Source: Parabacteroides faecis (GTDB taxonomy: Bacteria; Bacteroidota; Bacteroidia; Bacteroidales; Tannerellaceae). Taken from it: a stretch of DNA of 64,000 nucleotides. Position numbers and translations under genes: made by a program. The notes beneath the pieces were generated by a model that searched no databases, was not told the DNA's origin, and saw only the letters and a program-made list of their open reading frames with translations. Numbering within the stretch: position 1 is the first letter of the stretch; each line of letters opens with the position of its first letter. The stretch lies in NCBI RefSeq assembly GCF_014647375.1, contig NZ_BMPB01000009.1, positions 62,001-126,000 of the forward strand. Reading direction: 5' to 3'. This document shows, one piece after another, positions 21,060 through 44,550 of the stretch.

Positions 21060-21509
21060 TACTTTTCTCTTGATAGAAAAGTAACCAAAAGATCAAGGCT
21101 TAATCGGCTTCACTGCTTCGGTGAAAGACTCTGCTGAAAAATCCGAAACTCGCTACGCTCAGACAACGGATTTTTTTAATCGCTTCGTCTTCCCCCTTCG
21201 CGGACGTTCACCCGTTTAGGCCTTTCCCAGGAAGCTCCGCTTCCTCTTAGGATTGCCGACACTGATAATTATATACTATGAACAGTACTTTCTGTTTTAA
21301 CAGGCAGTGTCGGCAATCACAAAAGAACGCTTTGCGTTCTATGAAAGGCCTCAGCTGGTGAGCGTAAAGCGCAGCATCCGGAGAGAGCGTCCGGAGCATC
21401 CGTTGTTTGAGCGCAGCGAGTTTCGGAGGCGACAGCGAACGCAGGATGCGGAGTAGCGAGGCAGGTGTAGCCTTGATCTTTTGGCTACTTTTCCATCAAG
21501 GGAAAAGTA
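21060..21509. repeat. MITE-like 450-bp inverted-repeat element
   Basis: Terminal arms of 41 bp (21060-21100 and 21469-21509) match in 38 of 41 positions when inverted; they start TACTTTTCTCTTGAT and end GATCAAGGCT. Inside, TCCGAAACTCGCTACGCTCA and its inverted partner (about 21142-21170 and 21398-21426) and an exact 14-bp pair GATTGCCGACACTG / CAGTGTCGGCAATC (21251-21264, 21305-21318) are nested, so nearly the whole element can fold as one hairpin. It has no convincing gene. It fills the gap between the HAD gene and the CBM9-like gene. Confidence 0.75.
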
Positions 21510-28328: not shown

Positions 28329-29375
28329 ATGATGAAAAATATAACTGATTTGAAAACTGTCCGTCTCAGTGATGACCTGAATGCTGTCGTGATTCTGGAC
28401 CAAACCCGGTTGCCTGCTGAAGAGTGTTATTTGGAGTTGTCTTCGGCAGAGGAAATATGGGATGCGATTTACAAGTTGAAAGTACGTGGTGCGCCTGCTA
28501 TAGGAGTAGCTGCTGCTTATGGGATATATGTGTGCAGCAGACTGATTCAGGCCGGATCGTTTGATGAGTTTTATACGGAGTTTCACCGTATTAAGAATTA
28601 TCTGGCAGGTGCTCGTCCTACGGCTGTCAATCTGGTCGCCGCTCTGGAGCGGATGGAGAAAGTTGTGCTGAATAATGTTTCGGCAACGGTGCCTGACCTG
28701 GTAGAGTTACTACATGGGGAGGCGATGGCCATTCGTGAGGAAGATGCAGCTGCATGTCGGCGTATCGGTGAATATGGCTTGTCGCTGTTGCGTCCGGGAA
28801 TGGGGATTCTGACCCATTGTAATGCCGGACATCTGGCTGTTTCCGAATATGGGACGGCGCTGGCACCCATTTATCTGGGAGAGGAGAGAGGCTATGGCTT
28901 CAAGGTTTTTGCTGATGAAACCCGTCCGTTGCTGCAGGGAGCACGGCTCACTGCTTATGAATTGCATCGGGCTGGAGTAGACGTTACGCTTATCTGTGAT
29001 AATATGGCTTCGTCTGTTATGCAGAAAGGGTGGGTGCAAGCTGTTCTTGTCGGTTGCGACCGGATCGCAGCTAATGGCGATGTTGCGAATAAGATTGGAA
29101 CATCGGGTGTGGCTATACTTGCTCGTCATTATGGTATTCCTTTTTATGTTTTGGGACCTACTTCAACGATCGATATGCAATGTCCCGATGGGAAATCCAT
29201 TGTTATTGAGGAGCGCGATCCTGATGAAATAACAAAAATGTGGTATATACATCGTATGGCACCAAAAGATGTAAAAACATTTAATCCGGCTTTTGATGTG
29301 ACACCCTATGAATTAATTACTGCAATCATTACGGAAAAAGGTATTTTTAATCCGGTAGATGGAGGAATTGAGTAA
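28329..29375 (+). CDS. mtnA: S-methyl-5-thioribose-1-phosphate isomerase
   Basis: Cytoplasmic enzyme of the methionine salvage pathway that turns 5-methylthioribose-1-phosphate into the ribulose form (348 residues). The key motifs are [15 protein letters not shown] near 51-65, THCNAGHLA with catalytic Cys164, and [17 protein letters not shown] with Asp244, matching the Cys and Asp pair known for the family. It starts 3 bp after the lipoprotein gene. No other salvage gene is in the window. Its 3' end faces a long non-coding region with the invertible-promoter candidate. Confidence 0.95.
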
Positions 29376-29691
29376 TAGTGGATAATTCAGTATGGCTATA
29401 AGTGGGAACGCAGTGTTTTCAATGCCTCCGTCAGTTTCTTTTTAGTAACCTATTTGTGTTATAGTCAGTGTCTTGTGGAATTTTGTTAAGCGATAGAAAT
29501 GGAGTAGAAAAAGAGATCTGTTTTCTGTTGAATTCAAAGAAAAATATTCTTTATGTAGAATAAGAAGACATATAAGTCTTTAATTGAATTTGATAAAAGT
29601 AACCTATTAGAGTAGTAGTATATTAATCTGTTTCAGGTTGTCAACGCAAGTGTATTGTTGATAATTAAGCCTTGAAATTCTTCTTATTTGT
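29376..29691. other. Non-coding stretch after mtnA
   Basis: No gene or terminator is clear. An 11-base direct repeat, AGTAACCTATT, occurs twice (about 29434 and 29599). If the promoter at 29721-29752 is active in the present orientation it would transcribe this stretch leftwards, into the 3' end of mtnA. Confidence 0.4.
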
Positions 29692-29988
29692 AGTTCTGCC
29701 AGAACTATGTCCTCCGTGTGCAAATGTACGAACTAAATTTATAAAAAACAAAGCAATAAATGCAAATTTATTTGTTTTGTTTGCTGATTTGTGCGTTAAA
29801 TTTTGTTGTACAGACGTGTTCCCGTGTTAGTAGAGATGTTTTGTATCCAATTCCTGGTATTTTAGATTAAACTTGCTTGAATCAGTCCACATTTATATTA
29901 AAAACATTCCAATTTAATAGCGTAAATTATTTATTCATTTTGATAATCAGAATGTGTGATAAGCAATCACCATAGTTCTGGCAGGACT
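29692..29988. promoter_or_regulatory. Candidate invertible promoter segment bounded by 18-bp inverted repeats
   Basis: AGTTCTGCCAGAACTATG (29692-29709) matches the inverse of 29971-29988 in 17 of 18 bases. Each arm is itself a near-palindrome (AGTTCTG-C-CAGAACT). The 261 bp between carry one full-consensus promoter close to the left arm, on the minus strand. Inversion would place this promoter about 30 bp inside the right arm, pointing at the gene at 30162. No matching promoter is seen between 29989 and 30161. This is the architecture known for phase-variable surface loci in Bacteroidales; the inversion itself is inferred. Confidence 0.65.
29721..29752 (-). promoter_or_regulatory. Full-consensus promoter inside the invertible segment (present orientation OFF for the operon)
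   Basis: On the minus strand TTTG (29752-29749), a 20-bp spacer and TACATTTG (29728-29721) match the Bacteroidetes consensus at every defined base. Transcription would start near 29714 and leave through the left repeat arm. Confidence 0.7.
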
Positions 29989-30161
29989 CGATGCCAATGT
30001 GAAAAATTGAAAAACAAAATAGCCGGATAAAGTTTCTTCAATGTGAATGTATTGTTAACCTATTAAAAAAATGTCTATGAGTGGATAAAATTAAACCCGG
30101 ATTATTGCAGTATGTAATACTGAAACAGAAAGTTATACCTAAATATCTAAAGTAATCAATT

Positions 30162-31502
30162 ATGACAATTTATTTCAAACCCAAGAGATTTGTTACCAAG
30201 AATGTACCATCTCTTATGCTAAGTTGTTTACTTATCTTCATTTTTTCTTGTTCAGATGATAAGACGAAGACTAATGGAAGTGGACAACCCTATGATCCGA
30301 ATACTCCTGTCAAACTGGAAACATTTTATCCCGATTCGGGAGGAATGGCAACCAAGATGATCATTAAAGGTACGAATTTCGGTACAGATCCGGAAGCGAT
30401 AAAAGTATATTATAATACCAAAAAGGCGGCAGTTGTACGTGCCTCCGGTAATATGCTTTATGTAATTACTCCGAGGCAACCCGGAGCAGAATGTCAAATT
30501 TCTGTGGTTGTAGGAAAAGACTCTCTTACTTTTGAAAATACATTTTCTTATACAACACAAACTACTGTTTCTACTATAGCCGGAAAACCGGTGGGAGGTG
30601 ATGATGGGCATGGAGAGATGATTGATGGAACATTGGCTGAGGCTTCCTTTGATCAACCCTGGTTCTTATGCGTGGATGCTGAGAAAAATATTTTTGTCAG
30701 CGAACGTCTTGGACATGCAGTTCGCCAGATTAATGAAGAAAAGAATGTAGTCAGTACATTGGTTAAGGGTTCAGGAAACTGTCCGTATCCTAATGCCTCT
30801 GCCACGGATGCAGAAGGCAAAACTGTTTTTGTAGCTTTAGACCAAGGTTCCCAGGGATTGATAGAGTTTGATCCTGAAACTCAGTGGGCCCCTAAAAGAA
30901 TTAAACCCAGGGCTAAGGAAGGTACTCCTGCGTTTACACTGGACTGGATGCATTCGGTCGCTCCTAATATAAATGACGGGTTAATCTATACACGTGCTTA
31001 TAACGGGCAACTGGTTCGCTTTGACCCGAGAACAAAATCTGCAGAAAAGTTGGACGAAGGCTTGTTGAGTAGTTCCGATAGCTTTGTTAGTTTTGATACC
31101 CTTGAACCTGATATGTTGTATATCTGCTATTCGGCTAAACATTGTATATATAGTTATAACATCAAAACAAAAGAACATGAACTTTATGCCGGTGTTCAAA
31201 ATGAAAAGGGATGGCAGGATGGAGAACGGGAAGATGCCATGTTTAATGATCCGAAACAAATCTGCTTTGATGAAGACGGGGTGATGTATATCGCTGATGC
31301 CGGAAATCATGTAATAAGAAAAATCACACGTGATGGTGTGGTAAGTACTGTCATTGGTATTGCCGGTGTAAAAGGATATGTGGATGGTTCACCGGAAGAT
31401 GCTTTATTTCAATATCCTACAGGGGTGGCTATCGACAAAGAGGGTACTATTTATGTCGGCGATGCAAGGAATAATTGTGTTCGTAAATTGGCTATAGAAT
31501 AA
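30162..31502 (+). CDS. IPT/TIG and NHL-repeat lipoprotein
   Basis: Lipoprotein of 446 residues (signal to Cys30, LIFIFSC). A first IPT/TIG immunoglobulin-like domain runs about 50-135 (KLETFYPDSGGMATKMIIKG, then GTNFGTDPEAIKVYY). Then come NHL-type propeller repeats (DQPWFLCVDAEKNIFVSE, NDPKQICFDEDGVMYIADAG, YPTGVAIDKEGTIYVGDARN). In Bacteroidetes such proteins are surface glycan- or ligand-binding partners of SusCD systems. It is the first gene downstream of the invertible-promoter candidate and lies 33 bp before the SusC gene. Confidence 0.88.
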   Translation: MTIYFKPKRFVTKNVPSLMLSCLLIFIFSCSDDKTKTNGSGQPYDPNTPVKLETFYPDSGGMATKMIIKGTNFGTDPEAIKVYYNTKKAAVVRASGNMLYVITPRQPGAECQISVVVGKDSLTFENTFSYTTQTTVSTIAGKPVGGDDGHGEMIDGTLAEASFDQPWFLCVDAEKNIFVSERLGHAVRQINEEKNVVSTLVKGSGNCPYPNASATDAEGKTVFVALDQGSQGLIEFDPETQWAPKRIKPRAKEGTPAFTLDWMHSVAPNINDGLIYTRAYNGQLVRFDPRTKSAEKLDEGLLSSSDSFVSFDTLEPDMLYICYSAKHCIYSYNIKTKEHELYAGVQNEKGWQDGEREDAMFNDPKQICFDEDGVMYIADAGNHVIRKITRDGVVSTVIGIAGVKGYVDGSPEDALFQYPTGVAIDKEGTIYVGDARNNCVRKLAIE

Positions 31503-31535
31503 TCTAATAATTAAAACAAGTTTAAAATTGATGAT

Positions 31536-34500
31536 ATGAAAAAACTCTTCATCATACATATGTTGCTATGGTGTGCTATGGTTATGGTCGCACAGAAGCA
31601 AACATTTACGATACAAGGAACAATTATTGATCCGTCATTCAATAATGAACCGCTATCCGGGGTGAATGTCTATTTGAAAGATCGTCCGGGTGTTGGTACG
31701 GCTTCGGATATAGACGGTAAATTTTTTGTAAAGGCCAGCAAAGGAGATGTGATTGTTTTTACCTATCTGGGATATGATAATTTTGAATATCAGGTAGTAA
31801 AAGATGAAAAGAATCTGGTTGTCAAAATGGTGACTTCATCGGTTCAGTTGGAGGAGGCCGTTGTTACTGCCATGGGGAGTAAGCAACGAAAAATTAGTGT
31901 GCTTAGTGCTGTTTCAACTGTCGATACAAAAGATTTGCAAGTACCGTCTACTTCAATCAACAACATGCTGGGAGGTAGAGTTGCCGGAGTTATATCTTTA
32001 CAAAGTAGTGGAGAACCAGGCAAAAATATATCGGAATTCTGGGTTCGTGGTATGAGTACTTTCGGTGCTAACAGTAGTGCTTTGGTACTTATTGATGGGT
32101 TGGAAGGCGATTTGAGTCATATAGAACCTGCTGATATTGAAAGTTTTTCTATTCTAAAGGATGCCTCTGCAACAGCAGTGTATGGGGTTAGAGGTGCTAA
32201 TGGGGTTGTATTGGTGACAACCAAACGTGGAACGGTGGACCGTTTGAGAATTACAGCACGTGCAAATTTAACGGTATCTACATTGAAGCGCTTACCAGAA
32301 TACTTGGGAGCTTATGATTATGCAAAATTAGCCAATGAAGCCCGGGTAGTATCAGGGTCTACTCCATTATATTCACCGATGGAAATGGATTTGATCAAAT
32401 ACCAACTTGATCCGGATTTATATCCTGACGTAAATTGGCAGAATGAGGTATTGAATAAGACTTCTTTACAGCAAACTTATTATATCAATGCACAAGGAGG
32501 AGGTAGTATTGCCCGTTATTTCATTAGTTTGGGAATGTCCGATGAAGGCGCAGCCTATAAACAGGATAAGAATAGTAAATATAAGGCCGGTTCCGGATAT
32601 AATACATATAATTATAGAACAAATCTGGATGTTAATGTGACAAAAACAACCCAGGTCTATTTGGGACTTGACGGAACTTTGACTTCCAAAAAAGAACCGG
32701 GTATGGCGAATACCGATTATTTGTGGTATGCGCAAGCTGCTCTGACTCCGCTTACGATTCCTACTAAATATTCTAATGGTATGTTACCGGCTTATGGAAC
32801 AGGTAGCCAGTACTCTCCTTATGTGATGTTGAACCATACGGGGATGAAAACATCTGAGACTTACTCCAATATGGTGACGCTTGCTTTAACTCAGGATTTT
32901 TCACCGATATTGAAGGGGTTGAAAGTGAAAATACAGGGTGCTTTAAATAATAAGAGTTACTATGATGAAACACGTTATGTTTTGCCCGATATGTATTATG
33001 CAGTGGGGCGTTCCACCGACGGGGAGTTAAAACTGGTAAAGAAAATCAATTCCGAAGCGGCTATGTTTGGTAATTATCAGAGACAATGGCGCAAATACCA
33101 TTTTGAAGCGAATGTGAATTATGAAAATATGATCGGTGACGATCATCGTTTTACTGGGTTACTCTACTACTATATGAGTGATGAGAAAGACACATACAAT
33201 GTAAACACAAGCATGGATGCGATACCTAAAAGGTATCAAGGGTTGTCCGGACGTGTGACATATGGTTTTAAAGATACCTATTTCGTTGATGCTAACTTTG
33301 GTTATACCGGCTCTGAAAATTTCCGTCCGGGACAACAATTCGGTTTCTTTCCTTCCGGTGCGGTCGGATGGGTTCCGACAAACTATGATTTTATGAAAAA
33401 AACTTTGCCTTGGTTGAACTTCCTGAAATTCAGATTCTCTTACGGGCAAGTAGGTAACGACCGTATTTCAGATAAACGATTTCCTTATTTGACTATTATC
33501 AATTCGACAGCCAATACAGGGTGGGGAAGTCGTTACTCCTGGGGGGTAAACGAGTCGATTGTCGGTGCGGATAATCTGGCTTGGGAAAAATCAACCAAAG
33601 CAGACTTAGGTATTGAAGGTCGTTTGTTTGATGAACGTGTGAATTTTGTTGTGGACTTCTTTAATGACCAACGCGAAGGTATTTTCCAACAGCGTACCCA
33701 GGTTCCTGATTTTGCGGGCATTATAACGATGCCTTTTGGTAATGTCGGACGTATGAGAAGTTATGGATCTGATGGGAATATTTCTTATACACAAACGTTT
33801 GGTAAGGACTTTACTTTTACGGTTCGTGGAAACTTTACCTATTCAACAAATGATGTTCAAGATTGGGAGCAGGCATATCCTAAATACGAATATCAACGTA
33901 TTGCCGGTAATCCATTGAATATACAGAGAGGGTATATTGCTTTAGGGTTATTCAAGGATGATCAGGATGTGGCAAGTAGTCCTGCCCAGTTCGGTACGGT
34001 TCGCCCGGGTGATATCAAATATAAAGATGTTAATGGAGATGGAAAAATAACGACAGACGATAAAGTGCCGTTATCTTTTTCTGATTATCCACGTTTGATG
34101 TATGGTTTTGGGGGTGAGTTTAGGTATAAAAATCTGACCTTATCGGTGTTATTTAAAGGAACTGGTAATACGGACTATTATAAAGCAGGTTTACCTGACG
34201 GATATGGTAATTATGATGTATATGAAATGGGATATATACCGTTCCATAAAGCCGTGGTGGGTAATGTTCCGGCATTGGCTGGTATCCAGGGAAACCGATG
34301 GACTCCAGCCTGGTATTCGGGAGATCCGTCTACAGAAAATCCGGATGCTATGTTTCCTCGTCTGACCTATGGAAAGAATGAGAATAATACACAAGTTTCG
34401 ACTTTCTGGAAAGGTAATTCCAAATATTTGCGTTTACAGGAAATAAGTCTGACCTATAACCTGAAGTCTTTAGGCTGGTTGAATAATGTCGGGATTTCTT

Positions 34501-34640
34501 CCGTAGACCTGCAATTGGTCGGGTATAATCTTTGTGTCTGGGATAAAGTAAAGACGGTAGATCCGGAACAAGCTGGTAAAAACGGGAATGTTTATCCCAT
34601 ACCGGCCAGATATGCGATACAAATGTATGTTAATTTCTAA
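31536..34640 (+). CDS. SusC/RagA-family TonB-dependent receptor
   Basis: Outer-membrane transporter of 1034 residues. Signal peptide 1-19 (ending VMVAQ), carboxypeptidase-regulatory-like domain about 22-105 (TIQGTIIDPSFNNEPLSGVN, YLKDRP), plug about 110-230 (LVLIDGLEGDLSHIEPADIE, FSILKDASATAVYGVRGANG), then barrel to the end (IPARYAIQMYVNF). It has no STN domain, so trans-membrane signalling to an anti-sigma factor is not indicated. The SusD partner starts 13 bp later. Its control is best explained by the upstream invertible promoter, which is inference. Confidence 0.95.
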   Translation: MKKLFIIHMLLWCAMVMVAQKQTFTIQGTIIDPSFNNEPLSGVNVYLKDRPGVGTASDIDGKFFVKASKGDVIVFTYLGYDNFEYQVVKDEKNLVVKMVTSSVQLEEAVVTAMGSKQRKISVLSAVSTVDTKDLQVPSTSINNMLGGRVAGVISLQSSGEPGKNISEFWVRGMSTFGANSSALVLIDGLEGDLSHIEPADIESFSILKDASATAVYGVRGANGVVLVTTKRGTVDRLRITARANLTVSTLKRLPEYLGAYDYAKLANEARVVSGSTPLYSPMEMDLIKYQLDPDLYPDVNWQNEVLNKTSLQQTYYINAQGGGSIARYFISLGMSDEGAAYKQDKNSKYKAGSGYNTYNYRTNLDVNVTKTTQVYLGLDGTLTSKKEPGMANTDYLWYAQAALTPLTIPTKYSNGMLPAYGTGSQYSPYVMLNHTGMKTSETYSNMVTLALTQDFSPILKGLKVKIQGALNNKSYYDETRYVLPDMYYAVGRSTDGELKLVKKINSEAAMFGNYQRQWRKYHFEANVNYENMIGDDHRFTGLLYYYMSDEKDTYNVNTSMDAIPKRYQGLSGRVTYGFKDTYFVDANFGYTGSENFRPGQQFGFFPSGAVGWVPTNYDFMKKTLPWLNFLKFRFSYGQVGNDRISDKRFPYLTIINSTANTGWGSRYSWGVNESIVGADNLAWEKSTKADLGIEGRLFDERVNFVVDFFNDQREGIFQQRTQVPDFAGIITMPFGNVGRMRSYGSDGNISYTQTFGKDFTFTVRGNFTYSTNDVQDWEQAYPKYEYQRIAGNPLNIQRGYIALGLFKDDQDVASSPAQFGTVRPGDIKYKDVNGDGKITTDDKVPLSFSDYPRLMYGFGGEFRYKNLTLSVLFKGTGNTDYYKAGLPDGYGNYDVYEMGYIPFHKAVVGNVPALAGIQGNRWTPAWYSGDPSTENPDAMFPRLTYGKNENNTQVSTFWKGNSKYLRLQEISLTYNLKSLGWLNNVGISSVDLQLVGYNLCVWDKVKTVDPEQAGKNGNVYPIPARYAIQMYVNF

Positions 34641-34653
34641 AAAAAAACAGGAT

Positions 34654-36645
34654 ATGAGATATTTAAGATATTTGAAACATTTAATCATTGCTGCTTTTAT
34701 TGCTTTGTATTGTTCTATGAGCTCGTGTAACTATCTGAATGTAGATGATTATTTTATGGATACATTGGGATATGATTCGATCTTTCATAATAAGTTGAAT
34801 TTGCAACAATATTTATGGGGTACAGCAGCTTTTTTTTATGATGAAGGGGCTATTTGGGGGAGTACGTATACGCCGGGAGTTGTCGCTTCGGATGAAGCTT
34901 TTGTTATGTGGGACCATGACGAGTATCCGGGCACGCAGTTTGTTTTGGGAAATATAAATCCGGACAATCTGATGAGTATGAATGTCTGGCCTCAAATGTA
35001 TAAGATTATACGGAAAACTAATCTTATTTTTCAACGAATAGATGAGTGTAAAGATCTTACGACTTTAGAAGAGCGTGAAATATTGGGGTATGCTCATTTT
35101 ATGCGTGCTTATGCTTATTATCATATACTGATGAATTTTGGTCCGGTAGTTTTGATAGGTGATGAAACACTGGAAACGAATGAGAAGCCGGAGTATTACA
35201 ATCGGGAAAGAGCGACCTATGATGAGTCGGTCGATTATATTTGTGACGAGTTGGAGTTGGCTGCGAAATATATACCTTTAACTGTCTCTATGGGACAATT
35301 CGGTCGTCCTACTCGTGGAGCGGCATACGGTTTGATTGCACGTCTGCGTTTACAGCAGGCAAGTCCTTTGTTTAATGGTGGCGCAGCGGCTAAAACGCAT
35401 TTCGCATCCTGGAAACGTTCGGTCGATGGAGTTGATTATGTCTCACAACAATATGACGAAAATAAATGGGCGATTGCTGCAGCTGCAGCAAAACGCGTGA
35501 TAGATATGGGAGTCTATGAGTTGTATACGGTAAAACGCGATTCAACGACCATGCCGTTACCTAAGAATGTCCCTTCGGGAGATTTTCCCAATGGAGCCGG
35601 AAATATCGATCCTTTCAAATCGTATAGCGATATGTTTACGGGAGAAGCTTTGTCACAGAAAAATACAGAGTTTGTATGGGGACGTACTTCCAGTAATGTA
35701 AGAGAATATACCCGGCATGCATTTCCTATTGATAATTTAGGTGGATGGAACGGCATGGCTGTGCCTCAAAAAATTGTAGATGCGTATTATATGGTAGACG
35801 GTCGTGATATCAACGACTCGAGTGAAGAGTACCCCTATTCGGAAGTCGGATTTTCCAGTGAGAAGCAATCTTTCTCCGGTTACCAGTTGAATAATGGTGT
35901 GTATAATATGTATCTGAATAGGGAAATGCGTTTTTATGCCTCTATCGGTTTTTGTGAATGTTTTTGGCCTTGTCTTTCAACGAGTGAGAGTGGTCGTAGA
36001 AATCAGACGATCACCTATTTTAAGGGTGGAAATTCAGGAAAAGACCGTACCAACTCAGATATTCGAAACTATCCGATTACTGGTTATGTAATAAAGAAGT
36101 ATATCCACAAAGATGATGCCTGGGCGGGAAATGATGCGGAGAGACTGGAAAAACCTTTCCCCATAATTCGTTATGCAGAAATTCTTATTTCTTATGTGGA
36201 GGCACTTAACAACCTGACGGGAGGACATACTATTACGGATGCTGACGGAAACAGCCGGACATTTACCAGAGATGAGAATGAAATGGCTAAATATTTTAAT
36301 ATGATTCGTTATCGTGCCGGGCTTCCGGGTTTGACATCAGCTGAATTATCATCCCGCGATCAAATGTTCGATCTGATAGTACGGGAAAGAATGATCGAGT
36401 TCTTGCATGAGAATCGTCGTTTCTATGATGTACGTCGCTGGGGAATTTATGAAGAGGTCGATAAAGATCCTATTGTCGGGATGGACACGGAATCGCGTAA
36501 AGACAGTTATTATGAACGTACAGTTGTAAATCATCCGATTGCCAGAAACCGTAAGGTCGAAAGAAAAATGATCTGGTTGCCTATTAGCCGTCAGGAAATA
36601 AGAAAAGTGCCGAAAATGGATCAAAATCCGGGATGGGATAATTAA
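34654..36645 (+). CDS. SusD/RagB-family lipoprotein
   Basis: Surface lipoprotein of 663 residues. The ATG at 34654 is used because it begins a good lipoprotein signal (MRYLRYLKHL..., Cys25 in SMSSC); earlier in-frame ATGs lie inside the susC gene. Family features are LGYAHFMRAYAYYHILMNFG near 145-165, FGRPTRGAAYGLIARLRL near 220, and the C-terminal FDLIVRERMIEFLHENRRFY with DVRRWG near 590. It forms the lid of the preceding SusC barrel. Ligand unknown; no enzyme gene is nearby to suggest one. Confidence 0.94.
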   Translation: MRYLRYLKHLIIAAFIALYCSMSSCNYLNVDDYFMDTLGYDSIFHNKLNLQQYLWGTAAFFYDEGAIWGSTYTPGVVASDEAFVMWDHDEYPGTQFVLGNINPDNLMSMNVWPQMYKIIRKTNLIFQRIDECKDLTTLEEREILGYAHFMRAYAYYHILMNFGPVVLIGDETLETNEKPEYYNRERATYDESVDYICDELELAAKYIPLTVSMGQFGRPTRGAAYGLIARLRLQQASPLFNGGAAAKTHFASWKRSVDGVDYVSQQYDENKWAIAAAAAKRVIDMGVYELYTVKRDSTTMPLPKNVPSGDFPNGAGNIDPFKSYSDMFTGEALSQKNTEFVWGRTSSNVREYTRHAFPIDNLGGWNGMAVPQKIVDAYYMVDGRDINDSSEEYPYSEVGFSSEKQSFSGYQLNNGVYNMYLNREMRFYASIGFCECFWPCLSTSESGRRNQTITYFKGGNSGKDRTNSDIRNYPITGYVIKKYIHKDDAWAGNDAERLEKPFPIIRYAEILISYVEALNNLTGGHTITDADGNSRTFTRDENEMAKYFNMIRYRAGLPGLTSAELSSRDQMFDLIVRERMIEFLHENRRFYDVRRWGIYEEVDKDPIVGMDTESRKDSYYERTVVNHPIARNRKVERKMIWLPISRQEIRKVPKMDQNPGWDN

Positions 36646-36659
36646 TAATAATAAAATAT

Positions 36660-37673
36660 ATGGATATGATAAATAAGGTAATATATAGAATAACAGCATG
36701 TTTGTTCTTTGTCGGACTTATCGCTTGTAACCAGAGTAATATGTTTCAGGAAGAACAATATAAAAAAGTGCTTTATGTGCTAAGTGATGATAATATGGCT
36801 TTTCAGGTCCTTCACTCACTGAATGAAACAGAAAGCACTGGTTATTTGACTCTTTATGCTGGAGGTACACTGGATATAGACCAGGATGTGACGTTTACGT
36901 TGGAACCTGATGAAGAATTGCTGGATGAATATAATTTGTTGAACTATGACTTGGATACGGACAAGTATGCGAAAAGATTGTCTCCGTCTAAATATACGAT
37001 CGATTCATATTCAGTAACGATGAGGCGGGGAGGAGAAATGCCTTATGCTTTATTGCCTATTAAGATACGTCCGCAAGGACTTTCCCCGGATTCTTTGTAT
37101 ATGATACCATTGAAGTTGACGAGCGTTTCTGCTTATGAAATTAATCCGAAGAAAAATCGTGTGCTTTATCAGGTAGTTCTGGAGAATGATTATGCTTCGG
37201 AAAAGGATAATACGTTAATGTCGATGAGAGGAACTCGCCAGATAGGCGACGGGACTGTTTCTAAAATTGCTGCAAATAAACGTATGTATCCTTTAAGCAA
37301 GCAGGAAGTAAGGATTAATGCCGGTATGGAAAACAGTGGAAATAAAGCTGATCTGGAGTTGATCAATAAATATAGTATTATTGTAAAGATTGGTGAAGAA
37401 AGAACATTGACTTATAATGGTGTCTCTTATTATCCATTGACAGTATATCCTTATAAGAAAGAAAATATACAGGTTGAAATGTTGGGAAGTGAAGACGATA
37501 AAGAAGTATTGACTGTCGCTGAATCGAACCGATATGGTGAAGAATTGGGAATAATGAGATTCCATATTTCTTATCGATATCGTACTTTGGTTTCTCCTGC
37601 CTCGGAAGATCAGGAGGCGGAATGGAGTGATTGGGTCGTTGTTACTGAAAATATGAAACAGTTAGCAAAGTAG
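36660..37673 (+). CDS. DUF4361/DUF1735-like (BT_3987-type) lipoprotein
   Basis: Lipoprotein of 337 residues (signal to Cys23, VGLIAC). The N-terminal domain about 30-160 shows DIDQDVTFTLEPDEELLDEY and YTIDSYSVTMRRGGEMPYAL with LPIKIRPQGLSPDSLYMIPL, the usual pattern of DUF1735-type surface proteins that accompany SusCD in Bacteroidetes. The C-terminal part fits DUF4361. These proteins are thought to bind extracellular ligand. It follows SusD by 14 bp and precedes a 14-bp-stem hairpin, so it likely ends the first transcription segment of the operon. Confidence 0.82.
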   Translation: MDMINKVIYRITACLFFVGLIACNQSNMFQEEQYKKVLYVLSDDNMAFQVLHSLNETESTGYLTLYAGGTLDIDQDVTFTLEPDEELLDEYNLLNYDLDTDKYAKRLSPSKYTIDSYSVTMRRGGEMPYALLPIKIRPQGLSPDSLYMIPLKLTSVSAYEINPKKNRVLYQVVLENDYASEKDNTLMSMRGTRQIGDGTVSKIAANKRMYPLSKQEVRINAGMENSGNKADLELINKYSIIVKIGEERTLTYNGVSYYPLTVYPYKKENIQVEMLGSEDDKEVLTVAESNRYGEELGIMRFHISYRYRTLVSPASEDQEAEWSDWVVVTENMKQLAK

Positions 37674-37692
37674 TATACTGGTTCTTCTTTGT

Positions 37693-37738
37693 AGGTCCAA
37701 AAAAGCAGGAAACAATCGTTTTTGGCTTTTTTGGACCT
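37693..37738 (+). terminator. Perfect 14-bp stem between the DUF4361-like gene and the MG2 gene
   Basis: AGGTCCAAAAAAGC (37693-37706) pairs exactly with 37725-37738. The T-run is within the stem, so it is either a partial terminator or an RNA-stabilising hairpin that sets differing levels of the genes on each side. Confidence 0.6.
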
Positions 37739-37783
37739 CTTATAAAGTATCATGAAGGAATGATGAAAAATATCAGTTGATTT

Positions 37784-40132
37784 ATGAAACCCTTATTTAT
37801 GATTATAGTTTGTGTCCTGTTGAATGGAATGATGTCGTTTCGTTTATTTCAGGAAAAAACAACAAGTGAACAGATTCTTTCCTTTTTTGATAATCTCCGG
37901 ATGGTTCAACAGGAAAAGTTGTATTTACATTTGGATAAGCCCTATTATGCCGGGGGAGAACAGATTTGGTTTAAGGGATATCTGGTAAACTCGTCTACCC
38001 ATAAACCGGATATGCCGGATAACTTTATTTATGTGGAATTAGTTAATCAGGATAATAAAATTATTCGCAGGCAAAAAGTGAAGAAAAATGAAGGAGGGTT
38101 TTGGGGAAATTTGTCATTGCCTTTGGATCTTCCTGTAGGCGAATATACATTGAGAGGATATACTAATTGGATGCGTAATACTGATTCCGGTTTTTTCTTT
38201 CAGAAAAATATTCCGGTAGCCAATGTATTGGATAGGTCTGATTCTGTAGATTTCAATAAGGAAGATATAGGGGAAAATGATTTTAGTGTTTCCTTCTTTC
38301 CCGAGGGAGGACATTTATTAATTGGATATCGTCAGCAAATAGCTTATAAATGTCAGCGCTCGGATGGCTATAGTGGAGTGATGAAAGGATATATAGTTAA
38401 TCAGTTAGGGGATACGCTCACACAATTAGAGAGTGAACATGATGGTATGGGAGCTTTTTCTTTTTTTCCGGAGAAAGATAATTCATATTATGCATTAGTC
38501 CGTTCTCCCGGATGCGCAGAAAAAAAGATACAATTGCCACAAGCGGAAGATTCTGGTATTACATTGTCATTAAATCAGTCGGCAGGAAAAATACGTTATC
38601 GTATCTTTTCGTCTCTGCCTGCAAGTAAGCAATCGGATTCGTTATATTTGATCGGCCATACAAGAGGATCACTTCGCTTTTTGTTACCGGTGAGTAATGA
38701 TAACTATACGGGGGTTATCAATTCCTCTTATTTCCCGGATGGTATTTCTCATTTTCTGTTGATGGATCAGACCGGGAATAAATTGAGTGAGCGGTTGATA
38801 TTTAATTATCCGGAAAAGAACAGTTGTTGGACTTTACAAACTGATAAGAAAAAATATGATCGTCGGGAAAAAATAAAAGTAAATATCAAGTTAGATACTG
38901 AGTCGGAATCATCAGTGAAAGGGTTCTTTTCCTTAAGTATTACGGATAATAATTCGGTTTTTATGGATTCGCTATCGGGTAATATTTATTCCGAACTATT
39001 GCTTGTATCGGATTTGAAAGGGTTTATAGAGAATCCTGGATGGTATTTTAAAGAGAAGTCCAGAAAGGCTATAAGGGGGCTGGATTTATTGATGTTGACG
39101 CATGGATGGAGTCGTTTTGAAGTCAACCCTTTTACCGAACAATCACATGTGCCCGCTTATTTCGTGGAGAAAGGACAGTATATAAGTGGGAGAATTTTGA
39201 ACTTTTGGGGTAAAGAGGCGAAAGAGGCGGCAATAGTTGCCGTTGATCCGGTAAATAATCTGGTCAGGTCTTTGGAGTCGGATGAAAAAGGCTGTTTCCT
39301 GCTGGATGGAATTGATTATTGCGACTCGACAACTTTTGTAATACAGGCCCGTAGCAAAAAAGGCTTGGCTGTTGTCGATATAAAGATGGACGAAGAAACT
39401 ATTCCGGTTGTAAAAAATAAAAATTTATTTCCTGATTCATTGTTTGTTTTTAATCCGCATTATTTATCCTCTGCAATAGATGCCGGTGGTATGCGTGTAA
39501 TCAATCTGGAAGATGTTGTCATTGAAGGTAAACGGAGCCAGACAGCTAAAGAGAAGGCCGAACGTGTGTGGGCTGATTATTCGATGACAGAAGAGATGCT
39601 AGGAAAGTCTGTATCCAGAACTGCAAAAGATTTATTCAGAAATGCTATGGGAGCAGCAGATATAAGTGATCCGTTAGTAGTGATTGATGGGATGTGTTGT
39701 TGGGATGATAATTATATATTGGAAACGATTTATCCGGATGACATGAAAAGCTTTGATGTATTTAAGGACCAGAAGCGATGTAAATATGGTTCTGTTAGTA
39801 AGTCGACTCCTGCCGTGGTGATTACATTGAAGCCGGAAGCGATGAGCCGTAAAAGAAAGGGGGTTGCTTTATTTCATTCGCTTGGATATGTGAAGCCGGA
39901 TCAATTCTACCATCCGGTATATGATATGCCTGATGAAAAACAGTTGGAAAAAATGGATGTACGTAGTACGATTTATTGGAATCCAACTTTGGAAATAGAC
40001 TCACAGGAAGGTGCAAATGTGGAATTTTATGCTTCGGATATCCCTGCATCATATCATGTTGTAATTGAAGGTGTGGATGAAAGTGGGCAGTTGTATCGGT
40101 ATTCAGGTGATTTATTGAAAATTGTAGAATGA
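37784..40132 (+). CDS. MG2-domain protein with a TonB-receptor plug-like C-terminus
   Basis: Secreted or envelope protein of 782 residues with a signal peptide (about 1-20). The N-terminal part (about 40-150) is an alpha-2-macroglobulin MG2-like domain: EKLYLHLDKPYYAGGEQIWF and LPVGEYTLRGYTNWMRN. A carboxypeptidase-regulatory-like segment lies near 465-540 (GQYISGRILNFWGKEAKEAA). The C-terminal part resembles a SusC plug without barrel: DPLVVIDGMCCWDDNY, then DMKSFDVFKDQKRCKYGSVS and AVVITLKPE. This type occurs in Bacteroidetes and has no known role. It overlaps the next gene by ATGA, so translation is coupled. Confidence 0.8.
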   Translation: MKPLFMIIVCVLLNGMMSFRLFQEKTTSEQILSFFDNLRMVQQEKLYLHLDKPYYAGGEQIWFKGYLVNSSTHKPDMPDNFIYVELVNQDNKIIRRQKVKKNEGGFWGNLSLPLDLPVGEYTLRGYTNWMRNTDSGFFFQKNIPVANVLDRSDSVDFNKEDIGENDFSVSFFPEGGHLLIGYRQQIAYKCQRSDGYSGVMKGYIVNQLGDTLTQLESEHDGMGAFSFFPEKDNSYYALVRSPGCAEKKIQLPQAEDSGITLSLNQSAGKIRYRIFSSLPASKQSDSLYLIGHTRGSLRFLLPVSNDNYTGVINSSYFPDGISHFLLMDQTGNKLSERLIFNYPEKNSCWTLQTDKKKYDRREKIKVNIKLDTESESSVKGFFSLSITDNNSVFMDSLSGNIYSELLLVSDLKGFIENPGWYFKEKSRKAIRGLDLLMLTHGWSRFEVNPFTEQSHVPAYFVEKGQYISGRILNFWGKEAKEAAIVAVDPVNNLVRSLESDEKGCFLLDGIDYCDSTTFVIQARSKKGLAVVDIKMDEETIPVVKNKNLFPDSLFVFNPHYLSSAIDAGGMRVINLEDVVIEGKRSQTAKEKAERVWADYSMTEEMLGKSVSRTAKDLFRNAMGAADISDPLVVIDGMCCWDDNYILETIYPDDMKSFDVFKDQKRCKYGSVSKSTPAVVITLKPEAMSRKRKGVALFHSLGYVKPDQFYHPVYDMPDEKQLEKMDVRSTIYWNPTLEIDSQEGANVEFYASDIPASYHVVIEGVDESGQLYRYSGDLLKIVE

Positions 40133-41811
40133 TGAGTAAATTGTTGTATATAAGTCTGTTTATTCTTCTGGTTCTGTTATTACAGGTTGGATATAGTTAT
40201 CATTTTTTCTATATCGAACAGTTTCAGTTGTTTATGTTTTCGGAAGATTATCTGTTTGAAACGATTTTTCATCCTGGAGGCTTATCCATATATCTAGGAG
40301 AGTTTTTTGTACAATTTTTTTATTATCCTCTGGTTGGCGAGATTATTACAGCATTTTTATTAGTATGTGCAGCCGGATTAGTGAAAAAATCCAGATCTTT
40401 CAATAATACATGTTTTTTACCGGAAGGTCTTATTCTCCTGTTTTTACTGATTGATATTCTTGATTTTAATTTTCTTTATGCAGGGATAGTTGCTTATTTG
40501 TTTTGTGTAATTTTTCTGCTGGCTTACCAGCGTATTCGGAAAGATATCGTACGTATCCTGACCGGATGTCTGATGAGCTGCTTGTTATATCTGATAGCCG
40601 GATCGGTATTTGTCGTTTTTGCAGTCTCATTATTGATGCTGGAAATAAATGTATATAGAATAAAAAAAAGCATGCTTCTTATGCCTTTGGTTTTCATGAT
40701 TCTGCTGGTGTTTTATCTGGATCATGCCGGGTATCTGTATTATTCGGAGATTATATGTTTTGCAGATGGGATATATGCATTGAAAGGAGGGGCAGGCTGG
40801 GTTATCTATGCTCCGTGGTTTTTATTGGCTTTCAGTCCGTTTCTGAGTTCATATTCGGATTTTATTTTTAGCATGATAAAAAATAAATATGGGAAGGTTG
40901 GCATGCAGGTGGTTCTATTGTTCCTCTGCGGTGTTTTTTTATTGTCCGAATATGATGACAGGAAATCTTTGCCGGTGAAAAAATATGCTTATTATGCAGC
41001 TCATAAAAAGTGGGAAAAGATATTACATAGTTGTAAGATACAGCCTCCTGCGGATTTATTGTGTCTTAATTATCAGAATTTAGCTTTGGCTGAACAGGGT
41101 ATTTTGGCAGACTCCTTACTGATGTATACACAACAGGGGAGTAAAGGACTGTTTGTTGACTGGAATATGACTCCTTTTGTATCTATGACACTACAACAGA
41201 TATGTTATTGCTATGGAGATATAGCATCGGCTCGAAAATATGCTTTTGAATGTAATGTCTGCGCACGATCTGTCGGATATCCACTGGCATTGAAAATGTT
41301 AGTCGTATGTAATCGGGAAGAAGGAGAATGTGCCGTTGTGGATAAATATCTTTCTTATTTGCATAAAACGTGGGTCTATCGAGATTGGGAGGTGGACACT
41401 CTTAGCTTGAGACCGATTGAATCTCGGGTTGATAATTTTGTATATCGCCAGAATATGGATCAGTTGGCTTACGATAACGTCTATGATAAGAAATTGGCTG
41501 ATTTTGTTTTATGTTCATATTTACTGGATAAAAACTTGAATGAGTTTTTGAAAGCATTTTACTATTTTTATAAAAATGAAAAAAATATTCCGGTTATTTA
41601 TCAAGAGGCAATTCTTATAGGAGCGCGTAGTAATCTTCAAATACTCGATTATTTCTCGATACCGGATGCCTTGAAGGAACGTTTTCTGGCTTATCAATCT
41701 TTTTGTAAGGCAAATAGATCGAAGATATCTGTATCCGGAAAAGAAAGTAGAAACGTTTGTTATACAAAGAGTTATTGGTATTATTATGATTTTAATCCGG
41801 TTCGGTTATGA
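40129..41811 (+). CDS. DUF6057-like multi-pass membrane protein
   Basis: Protein of 560 residues. The first 300 residues carry about nine or ten hydrophobic segments, with an early MFSEDYLFETIFHPGGLSIY region. The last 250 residues are soluble and helical with Tyr/Cys-rich repeats, which could be TPR-like. It fits the family called DUF6057 in Bacteroidetes, named from memory. It overlaps the upstream MG2 gene (ATGA) and the downstream lipoprotein gene (4 bp), so all three are translated together. The three proteins are probably parts of one envelope machine; the function is unknown. Confidence 0.72.
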   Translation: MMSKLLYISLFILLVLLLQVGYSYHFFYIEQFQLFMFSEDYLFETIFHPGGLSIYLGEFFVQFFYYPLVGEIITAFLLVCAAGLVKKSRSFNNTCFLPEGLILLFLLIDILDFNFLYAGIVAYLFCVIFLLAYQRIRKDIVRILTGCLMSCLLYLIAGSVFVVFAVSLLMLEINVYRIKKSMLLMPLVFMILLVFYLDHAGYLYYSEIICFADGIYALKGGAGWVIYAPWFLLAFSPFLSSYSDFIFSMIKNKYGKVGMQVVLLFLCGVFLLSEYDDRKSLPVKKYAYYAAHKKWEKILHSCKIQPPADLLCLNYQNLALAEQGILADSLLMYTQQGSKGLFVDWNMTPFVSMTLQQICYCYGDIASARKYAFECNVCARSVGYPLALKMLVVCNREEGECAVVDKYLSYLHKTWVYRDWEVDTLSLRPIESRVDNFVYRQNMDQLAYDNVYDKKLADFVLCSYLLDKNLNEFLKAFYYFYKNEKNIPVIYQEAILIGARSNLQILDYFSIPDALKERFLAYQSFCKANRSKISVSGKESRNVCYTKSYWYYYDFNPVRL

Positions 41812-43226
41812 TTAAATATTTATTATTTTGTTGGTATGTAATTCTGTTTTTATCTTGTGGTGGGGAAGAACGACCAAGCTATGCAATGAGGGAACTTATA
41901 TTTCCGGATTATAGAGATGTTACAATACCGGTTAATATAGCACCGTTATCTTTTTACGTGAATCTGCCGGAAATGGATAAAGATGTCCGGATATTATTAC
42001 GTACGCAAACCTGTGAGTTAGTCCGTCAGGGTAAAGAGATTTATTTCTCCTCACATGAATGGAGAGAATTAGTAATGTCGGATAGTGTACTGAATGTTTG
42101 GGTTCAGAAAAAGACCGATCGTCTGTGGAATAATGTTGATTCTTTTAAGATTTATGTATCCGCTGATCCGATAGATCCTTATCTTTCTTATCGCCTGATA
42201 GAACCGGGATATGAAGTGTGGGGAAATATGGGTATCTATCAACGTTGTTTGGCTAATTATGAAGAAAATGCTATTTTTGAAAATTCAGGTGTAAAAGAGA
42301 CTTGCGTGAATTGCCATACGACGAATCAGGGAAACCCGGAAGAATATATATTTCACCAACGTTCTAAGTCGGCAGGAACTATCTTGGTTAAAGATGGTGT
42401 TGTTAGCAAATTGAATACGGATTATTCTGAAAAAATAAAAGTATTAGTTTATCCATCCTGGCATCCTTCGGGGAAATATATTGCTTTTTCTGTAAATAAG
42501 ACAGTACAGACGGTACATTCACAGCATAGGAACCGTATTGAGGTGATGGACCTGCACTCTGATATCGTGATCTTGGATGTACAAAAAAATATACTTTTAA
42601 CCAGTTCTCAATTATCGTCGGCTAATGCCTATGAGACTTTTCCTTGTTTTTCTTCCGATGGAAAAAAGTTGTACTTTTGTTCAGCTCCAGCGATATCGTT
42701 ACCGGATTCATTTAATTTTGTGCAATACAATTTATGCAGTCTGGATGTGGATTTGGAAAAGGGTGTCTTGGGAAGTAGAATAGATACGGTGATACGGGTA
42801 GACACACTAAATGCCAGCCTCTCTTTTCCTAAAATTTCACCGTCCGGGCGTTTTATGCTGTATACACGGCATGCTTACGGTAATTTCTCTATCTGGCACA
42901 GAGATGCGGATTTATGCATGTATGATTTACAATCCCAAAGAGAAATAGATATATCTGTCTTGAATTCGGAAGAGGCGGAAAGTTTCCATTCCTGGTCGTC
43001 GGAAGGACATTGGATTGTTTTTAGCAGCCGTCGGATGACAGGACTTTTTACTTGTTTATATCTAGCTCATATTGATTCTTTAGGACATGCAGGAAAGCCA
43101 TTTTTATTACCGCAAAAAAGTAATGATTCTTATTTTTTTCAATATAAGTCTTATAATGTACCCGAATTTATGAAAGGGATGGTTCGAACAAACAGGAAGG
43201 AGTTGGAGATGGCTATAAGGAGATGA
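41808..43226 (+). CDS. PD40/TolB-like propeller lipoprotein with a CxxCH motif
   Basis: Lipoprotein of 472 residues (signal to Cys17, LFLSC). A single CVNCH (166-170) could bind a c-type heme covalently; it is followed by TTNQGNPEEYIFHQR, with a Met absent but His at the right distance. C-terminal to it are four PD40/WD40-like blades, for example YPSWHPSGKYIAFS, FPCFSSDGKKLYFC, FPKISPSGRFMLYT and FHSWSSEGHWIVFS. The combination suggests a cell-surface or periplasmic redox-linked protein, but it may be a structural metal site. It is the last gene of the operon and overlaps the DUF6057-like gene by 4 bp. Confidence 0.78.
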   Translation: MIKYLLFCWYVILFLSCGGEERPSYAMRELIFPDYRDVTIPVNIAPLSFYVNLPEMDKDVRILLRTQTCELVRQGKEIYFSSHEWRELVMSDSVLNVWVQKKTDRLWNNVDSFKIYVSADPIDPYLSYRLIEPGYEVWGNMGIYQRCLANYEENAIFENSGVKETCVNCHTTNQGNPEEYIFHQRSKSAGTILVKDGVVSKLNTDYSEKIKVLVYPSWHPSGKYIAFSVNKTVQTVHSQHRNRIEVMDLHSDIVILDVQKNILLTSSQLSSANAYETFPCFSSDGKKLYFCSAPAISLPDSFNFVQYNLCSLDVDLEKGVLGSRIDTVIRVDTLNASLSFPKISPSGRFMLYTRHAYGNFSIWHRDADLCMYDLQSQREIDISVLNSEEAESFHSWSSEGHWIVFSSRRMTGLFTCLYLAHIDSLGHAGKPFLLPQKSNDSYFFQYKSYNVPEFMKGMVRTNRKELEMAIRR

Positions 43227-43312
43227 TGTGCATAACTGCTACGAAGAGTTTCATAGCGGATCTGGTTTTAGCTTCTTTTGTGGAGGCTTCGTGAAAATAA
43301 ATTCCCGAAAGT

Positions 43313-43653: not shown

Positions 43654-44550
43654 ATGTTGATAGATTCATTTTTAGATTATCTTCGGTATGAGAGGAACTA
43701 TTCCAATTATACGATAGAGGCTTATTCGAAAGATTTGCGTCAGTTCGAAGAGTATGTAAAAGTGAATAAGGATAACAGATTTGCTCCGGATGAAGTCGAT
43801 GCGGATTTAGTTAGATGTTGGATCGTTTCTTTAATGGACGATAAGATGTCTCCTGTGTCGGTCAATCGGAAATTAAGTTCTTTGAAGTCTTTTTTTAAAT
43901 TCCTTATGAAGCAGGGAAGCATCTCTGTTAATCCATTAAGGTTAATAACCGGACCGAAGACAAAGAAGCCGTTGCCTTATTTCGTCAGAGATAAAGAAAT
44001 GGAATTGTTGTTGGATGGTGATGGGTTTGATGAGGATTTTGAGGGTGTAAGGGATCGTCTGATACTTGAAATGCTATATGATACAGGTATTCGTCGTTCG
44101 GAATTAACCGGAATTTGTGATTCTGATGTTGATTGTGATACGATGCAAGTGCGTGTAACAGGTAAACGTAACAAGCAGCGACTGATTCCATTTGCAGAAG
44201 GATTAAAAAACTTAATACAGGCATACACTGAAGTTCGAAATCGTGAAGTTGGTTCGGAGAGCGGATGGTTTTTTGTAAGAAAAAACGGGGAACAACTATC
44301 GGCAGGCATCGTCTATAATATAGTAAAGAAGAAATTGTCGGAGATCCCAACATTGGCGAAACGTAGCCCTCATGTATTGAGACATTCGTTTGCAACAAGT
44401 ATGTTGAATAATGGAGCAGAGCTGAATGCTGTGAAAGAACTGTTAGGACACAGTAGTTTGGCTTCAACCAGCGTTTACACACATACAACCTTTGAGGAAT
44501 TAAAAAAAGTGTATCATGCTCATCCAAGAGCTAAAAAAGAAGGAGGTTAA
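43654..44550 (+). CDS. xerC: XerC/D-like tyrosine recombinase
   Basis: Site-specific recombinase of 298 residues. The SAM-like N-terminal DNA-binding domain (1-95) is followed by the catalytic domain with Arg147 (DTGIRRSEL), Lys171 (VTGKRNKQR), His240 and Arg243 (SPHVLRHSFAT), His266 (LLGHSSL) and the nucleophile Tyr275 (STSVYTHTT), so all active-site residues are present. Its place between rpsU and hpf is conserved in Bacteroidales, which suggests the housekeeping chromosome-dimer resolvase and not a mobile integrase. Whether it is the XerC or XerD partner cannot be told. Confidence 0.88.
   Translation: MLIDSFLDYLRYERNYSNYTIEAYSKDLRQFEEYVKVNKDNRFAPDEVDADLVRCWIVSLMDDKMSPVSVNRKLSSLKSFFKFLMKQGSISVNPLRLITGPKTKKPLPYFVRDKEMELLLDGDGFDEDFEGVRDRLILEMLYDTGIRRSELTGICDSDVDCDTMQVRVTGKRNKQRLIPFAEGLKNLIQAYTEVRNREVGSESGWFFVRKNGEQLSAGIVYNIVKKKLSEIPTLAKRSPHVLRHSFATSMLNNGAELNAVKELLGHSSLASTSVYTHTTFEELKKVYHAHPRAKKEGG

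Follow-up and report, generated by a model that had tools for sequence, protein, structure and literature searches.

The 297-bp segment at positions 29692-29988 of the window (the whole 64,000-nucleotide stretch analysed here, G000:C9:62001-126000 of a 6.66-Mb Parabacteroides faecis genome) is, judged from its sequence, very probably a phase-variation switch, or inverton, that precedes a SusCD operon and is OFF as assembled. In the mechanism we propose, a tyrosine recombinase encoded at C3:454683-455873 most likely binds two inverted 15-bp sites and would invert the 297 bp that lie between them. In one orientation the promoter carried by the segment would drive a seven-gene TIG/NHL-SusC-SusD operon (30162-43226); in the assembled orientation it faces away, and the operon is probably off. 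We infer that this recombinase acts on the site, that the locus itself inverts and that its orientation sets the expression of the operon. A preliminary description of the same DNA had already read the operon as phase-variable, a reading now supported by a genomic family of switches with the same architecture, by an orthologous sister switch found inverted, and by a recombinase family associated with the repeat.

The segment is bounded by an 18-bp inverted repeat that agrees at 17 of 18 positions, as first described, with its left arm at 29692-29709 on the plus strand and its right arm at 29971-29988 on the minus strand. Within the left arm lies the putative recombination site AGTTCTGCCAGAACT (29692-29706, spacer GCC) and within the right arm the putative site AGTTCTGGCAGGACT (29974-29988), whose spacer, GGC, is complementary to that of the left; the lone mismatch between the arms falls outside the central seven bases. 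Taken by itself the repeat is weak evidence, because 20 shuffled windows gave 0-3 exact 14-bp inverted matches each (100-1500 bp apart), against four such matches at two places in the real window, 29692-29988 and 21085-21484. It is the 15-bp core, as a putative recombination site, that gives the repeat at 29692-29988 its significance. The second place falls in an intergenic stretch of 450 bp (21060-21509) made of nested inverted repeats, with 61-nt arms that are 82% complementary and 30-nt arms that are 93% complementary, and is possibly a MITE-like or hairpin element.

A promoter of the Bacteroidota consensus, TTTG-N20-TACATTTG, was found by motif scan on the minus strand at 29752-29721, pointing leftwards and away from the operon, where the preliminary description had placed a full-consensus promoter inside the repeat. 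It is the sole exact promoter match in the region, and its -7 box lies 14 bp inwards from the left arm's 15-bp site. The locus shows two features of invertible promoters of Bacteroidales, inverted repeats around a short intergenic segment and an outward-facing promoter inside one arm only. Flipping the segment in silico moves the promoter to 29928-29959 on the plus strand, facing the ATG at 30162, and reproduces the distance of about 196 nt from transcription start to ATG given earlier, the start being taken at an assumed offset of about 7 nt past the -7 box. A scan of the plus strand from the right arm to the ATG, with spacers of 18-22, found no promoter with one mismatch or fewer, in agreement with the earlier claim that no other consensus promoter lies there. 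Inside the assembled segment, two plus-strand promoter-like sites have one mismatch each (29771-29804 with a spacer of 22, and 29776-29805 with a spacer of 18). Because of these weak sites, OFF is used here to mean that the consensus promoter faces away and does not imply silence; of the apparent OFF state given at the outset, it is the direction of the promoter that stands.

The seven genes downstream all lie on the plus strand and were assigned by Pfam. The first (30162-31502) encodes a 446-aa putative surface lipoprotein with a TIG domain and NHL-type propeller repeats, the NHL matches being much stronger than a marginal match to the gluconolactonase-like propeller SGL (26.7 bits, cut-off 26.3). 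It is followed by a SusC-like TonB-dependent receptor of 1034 aa with Plug and CarbopepD_reg_2 domains (31536-34640), a SusD-like protein of 685 aa in its longest reading (34588-36645), a BT_3987-like/BT_3044-like surface protein of 337 aa (36660-37673), a 782-aa protein with a weak MG2 match below the Pfam cut-off (37784-40132), a DUF6057 protein of 560 aa (40129-41811) and a PD40 beta-propeller protein of 472 aa (41808-43226). None of these proteins matched a glycoside hydrolase, lyase or peptidase family at Pfam E <= 0.001, and in this usual sense the operon can indeed be called enzyme-less. The DUF6057 and PD40 gene pair (40129-43226) resembles, in N-terminal sequence and size, genes at a second switch-controlled SusCD locus, L068:7647-10685.

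The strongest context for the switch comes from the rest of the genome, where the core AGTYCTNNNAGRACT occurs at 41 sites, against 3 for a reversed control pattern. Inverted pairs of the core AGTTCT-NNN-AGAACT, sought in stretches around core sites plus some weaker sites, are present at at least 27 loci. These 27 loci comprise 28 pairs, with two left sites using one right arm at C3:209683, and the pairs range from 156 to 1195 bp in length. Further copies near surface loci, a check proposed in the preliminary description, are thus plentiful: a TonB-receptor gene lies in the adjacent co-directional run at 25 of the 27 loci, a raw count that includes C1:770406 on the strength of a CarbopepD_reg_2 match and size, no Plug match there passing 1e-8. 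The two loci without a TonB receptor are C6:336704, which adjoins a lone ECF sigma gene, and C14:173430. At the latter (L070, C14:173430-174624) the 1195-bp pair overlaps a 299-aa reading frame, and no SusC neighbour was found. Several of the target runs start with an ECF-like sigma gene, and the three tested by Pfam were all confirmed.

The family also shares the placement of its promoter. At 19 of the 27 loci one arm, and never both, has a TAnnTTTG box 14-21 bp to its inside, a number that averaged 0.4 and never exceeded 3 in 500 shuffles. The box stands at 34 bp in one more locus, and for seven of the 27 pairs a search reaching 60 bp from each arm gave no exact TAnnTTTG. From the direction of the putative promoter, 15 of the 20 loci with a box, that of the window included, are read as OFF relative to the adjacent SusC or sigma-factor operon; four are read as ON (C1:418015, C5:86899, C11:151437 and C15:163477) and at one, C3:209683, the switch is read as choosing between two divergent SusC genes. 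At four of the 15 (C1:41588, C4:43920, C6:336704 and C6:72287) the OFF reading depends on the choice of target, because the promoter also faces a co-directional gene on the other side. The switches at C3:209683 (L058) and C10:57039 (L065) both lie between divergent SusC-like genes, the right-hand one at C10:57039 being judged by sequence and size, and could each select one of two operons.

A detailed comparison of the paired sites enabled us to define a rule for their spacers. When spacer agreement was not required for pairing, every one of the 20 pairs totalling no more than one mismatch still had complementary central triplets. Among the 13 pairs with two or three mismatches the spacers were complementary in 8 and not in 5, and all five failures involve a two-mismatch site that lies outside every accepted pair. 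The 28 accepted pairs show 14 differences between arms, which fall exclusively at core positions 1, 2, 4 and 12; since mismatches are absent from positions 5-11, we infer a putative 7-bp overlap, CTNNNAG, of a length that suits a tyrosine recombinase. This pattern agrees with the initial proposal of the palindrome as a possible mark of the recombinase site, arm mismatches never occurring in the central seven bases. In the sister genomes, a hand count of the pair listing gave complementary spacers in 9/9 close exact pairs of G024 and 10/10 of G022, further single sites there being left unpaired.

The spacer itself changes between species, with both arms still matched, in three orthologous sets: GAA against AAA at C4:173390, ACA against ATC at C5:86899, and TGC against TGT between C17 of G024 and C8:2291740 of G022. 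The finder used for these orthologous pairs required spacer agreement, and a separate listing also holds, as exact pairs, the G022 pairs of the C4:173390 and the G024/G022 C17-C8 sets together with the G024 and G022 pairs of the C5:86899 set. At C5:86899 replacement of the whole switch between species is possible, because the inner segments gave no match. We rejected the idea that each switch has a unique spacer, as the 28 pairs fill 19 of 32 possible classes and, by our own arithmetic, about 18.8 would be expected at random.

Inversion was followed in switches orthologous between species, the genome collections holding one genome per species and the 29346-43280 block that contains the switch of the window being missing from G022 and G024. 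Between C15:163477 and its counterpart in G022, the 300-bp flanks are 95.3 and 96.3% identical, and the inner segment is 97.1% identical when flipped against 33.2% unflipped. At another switch, compared between G024 and G022, the flanks are 97.7 and 94.3% identical and the inner segment 90.6% flipped against 14.7%. A wider comparison drew on 56 pairs of three genomes and gave 18 rows of unchanged orientation and 3 of inverted orientation. Several of these rows share loci, a single 131-bp flank carries the third inverted one, and no verdict was given where flanks were ambiguous or an inner match was missing. These alignments show that inversion occurs in this switch family. They also bear on a different account, that the palindromes are paired operators of a DNA-looping transcription factor and nothing inverts. 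Such operators would be expected to resemble the sites in that the core is palindromic and flanks promoters; yet a regulator needs no complementary spacers, which every one of the near-perfect pairs has (20/20), at these very sites two orthologous segments have opposite orientations in different species, and similar sites bracket recombinase genes at 38/59 loci outside Tannerellaceae. We regard operators without inversion as very improbable.

Switch and operon together form a block of about 13.9 kb (29346-43280, boundaries approximate) that is absent in six Parabacteroides genomes: in G024, G019, G022, G014, G013 and G021 the gene before the switch directly adjoins the xerC-like gene. The corresponding stretch of G011 matches the flanks on the xerC side only. 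Matches to the 446-aa first gene occur in 3/39 genomes of the genus, the window's own included, and no relatives of it were found in a genome-contig collection. Elsewhere in G011 lies a related operon whose first gene is 58% identical to the 446-aa gene, with a site AGTTCTGCAAGAACT about 105 nt before it and a degenerate partner at 12607; a gene judged transposase-like by sequence lies between the good and the degenerate site (L234, G011:C54:10773-12621), and no -7 box was found near either. A second operon of this type in the P. faecis genome, at C18:24282, has no site pair.

The G011 arrangement, with its good and degenerate sites, intervening transposase-like gene and missing -7 box, lends some plausibility to the suggestion that the switch of the window is likewise a fossil, fixed OFF, whose operon is expressed rarely or from a weak fixed promoter, as does the single orientation at 29692-29988 available from one genome per species. 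Against decay of this kind, the arms still agree in the central seven bases, the promoter retains the full consensus, and the genome has the candidate recombinase gene without stops. A fossil is accordingly an improbable reading, and a working inverton remains the one we prefer.

For the enzyme, a PF00589 search returned 23 places in the genome, and there are four matches to the resolvase family of serine recombinases. Domain and sequence comparison point to a 397-aa tyrosine recombinase (G000:C3:454683-455873) as the likely enzyme. The protein, which has Arm-DNA-bind_5, SAM-like and Phage_integrase domains, is related to Tsr0667, the invertase of SusC/SusD regions in B. fragilis, and its gene adjoins SusD-like and SusC-like genes, as judged by sequence and size. 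Tyrosine recombinases use the catalytic set R, K, H, R, H, Y, and the corresponding residues of this protein (R244, K271, H333, R336, H359 and Y368) are invariant in 15 aligned relatives, while its reading frame is free of stops. This genome thus has a gene for a Tsr0667-like tyrosine recombinase in which the catalytic residues are complete. A relative in B. fragilis Q1F2 is 57% identical, and by this likeness the candidate would correspond to Tsr0667. The repeat consensus of the 2009 Tsr0667 paper is reportedly AGTYYYN4GDACT, and both arms of the switch fit it on inspection. Two sites only lie near the operon, and a shufflon-type multiple inversion is not found at 29692-29988; simple members of a Tsr0667-type regulon need none.

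The distribution of the candidate across the genus is statistically associated with that of the sites. Full-length relatives (over 500 bits) are present in 19/39 genomes, eight further genomes with partial matches being counted as without. At least 8 strict sites were found in 12/19 genomes with a full-length relative against 1/20 without (Fisher p 1.4e-4), and strict sites had a median of 11 in the former and 0.5 in the latter group (Mann-Whitney p 3e-4 over all 39 genomes; p 0.002 for the 15 vs 13 genomes at least 90% complete), in tests that ignore relatedness. G004 is an exception, having 15 strict sites and no close relative (best match 31% identity, none over 44%), as are G017, G001 and G007, each with a full-length relative and 0 strict sites; beside their recombinase genes, G017 has variant pairs and G001 a single variant site.

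Sites beside the recombinase gene itself are common in the family and absent here. Among 16 gene neighbourhoods in the genus, 9 have a complementary broad-consensus pair; those without are in the window's own genome, G024, G022, G019, G014, G041 and G001. In 18.5 kb around the candidate gene there is no site pair, and likewise none in the nearest relatives, G024, G022 and G019. At recombinase loci from named genomes (80 kept of 91, including near-duplicates and relatives, and hence not independent), complementary AGTYYYN4GDACT pairs spaced 100-8000 bp apart occur at 46/80, against 0/80 for each of six control patterns. The strict core, scanned at 100-1500 bp, gave 8/80 loci, against 2/80 for one control core, itself a variant of the broad consensus, and 0/80 for four others. 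By group, broad-consensus pairs were found at 7/14 Parabacteroides loci, 1/7 loci of Tannerellaceae MAGs and 38/59 others. The recombinase gene lies between its two sites in 38 of the 46, which are all 38 of the others, B. fragilis Q1F2 among them, and outside the two sites at the 8 Parabacteroides and Tannerellaceae loci with a pair. The search for a matching invertase, also proposed in the preliminary description, has therefore yielded a candidate family statistically associated with the repeats, without a site pair beside the gene in this genome.

This last point, together with the sites of G004, leaves room for a real switch worked by a different enzyme, whether the XerC homologue at 43654-44550, one of the other 21 Phage_integrase matches or one of the 4 resolvase matches; L040, L041, the mobile-element-type integrases and the four resolvases lie outside the genus-wide tracing. 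XerC and XerD are housekeeping recombinases, XerC being present in 7/7 genomes tested, and were rejected as the switch enzyme for this reason. Five Tsr-like genes (L045 and L047-L050) were set aside since they lie beside local invertons of their own with a different repeat, and L046 since it has relatives of 67-68% identity in only 2/38 other genomes, with weaker relatives in most. Ten other integrase neighbourhoods hold 0 site pairs, which is equally true of the candidate, and it is the candidate's family that is associated with the repeats. We consider another enzyme unlikely, though with an appreciable chance of being right; the missing site pair at the candidate gene of this genome is the reason for granting it this much and for stopping at very probable on the main reading.

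Inverted repeats were also noticed at other recombinase loci of the genome. Three 418-bp invertons, L081 (C7:71480-71897), L082 (C3:184333-184750) and L083 (C11:177839-178256), share a 21-bp repeat, ACCTTATTTATATAATAAGGG, and each is flanked by a Tsr-like gene on one side and by similar surface-protein-like genes in a run on the other. L079 (C1:365535-368394) has a recombinase gene among genes judged hsdS-like by sequence and a pair of 22-bp inverted repeats separated by 1.1 kb; it may be a phase-variable restriction system.

The switch at 29692-29988 is, on this evidence, well supported as an ordinary inverton of the Tsr0667 kind within a large network, and a single recombinase, of a kind already known, probably operates the at least 27 switches of the genome. 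In B. fragilis, Tsr0667 is described as controlling three SusC/SusD clusters of the shufflon type together with nine further regions (PMC4747536). Tsr0667 (BF0667) of B. fragilis YCH46 has in common with our system a tyrosine recombinase and many distant regions, SusC/SusD clusters among them; the difference is that ours is in Parabacteroides and has at least 27 loci instead of 12 regions. The B. fragilis Q1F2 relatives, 57% identical, lie between AGTYYYN4GDACT-type repeats and may correspond to BF0667. Compared with the Tsr0667 repeat, the palindrome here, AGTTCTNNNAGAACT, is tighter, and compared with its shufflons, 29692-29988 is a simple promoter inversion whose enzyme gene is not beside the sites in this genome.

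Mpi is likewise a master recombinase with many promoter inversions (13 regions); it differs in being a serine recombinase with seven targets that are capsule promoters of B. fragilis, a separation made by description and not by repeat sequence. Another known tyrosine-recombinase system shares invertible promoters for surface loci and a TAnnTTTG -7 box, but has two target regions, one of them beside the enzyme gene. PhaseFinder-type catalogues of Bacteroidota invertons (PMC11892184) consist mainly of intergenic inverted-repeat segments, as here, several groups having the Bacteroides promoter motif, and group repeats by similarity. Numerous inversion sites in P. distasonis (PMC5903667) and invertible regions near SusC/SusD (PMC10939037) have also been described. 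Among the titles and some passages covered by our literature search, no description of an AGTTCT-NNN-AGAACT repeat family in Parabacteroides was found.

The spacer rule and its concerted drift could be the part with novelty. A tentative model, to which we give somewhat less than even weight, is that one tyrosine recombinase runs at least 27 promoter switches on a single chromosome and that the matching spacer in the 7-bp overlap of each pair limits its partners and drifts in concert, making it a partly private address by which many switches could use a common enzyme. As a practical matter, the spacer rule is a simple predictor of partner repeats in the genome. For the biology of the organism, these results link a specific uptake operon to phase variation and point to one enzyme by which some two dozen outer-membrane transporters of a Parabacteroides may be switched. 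If this is true, loss of one gene should lock all switches, and what SusCD phase variation contributes to nutrition, phage escape and immune recognition would become directly testable.
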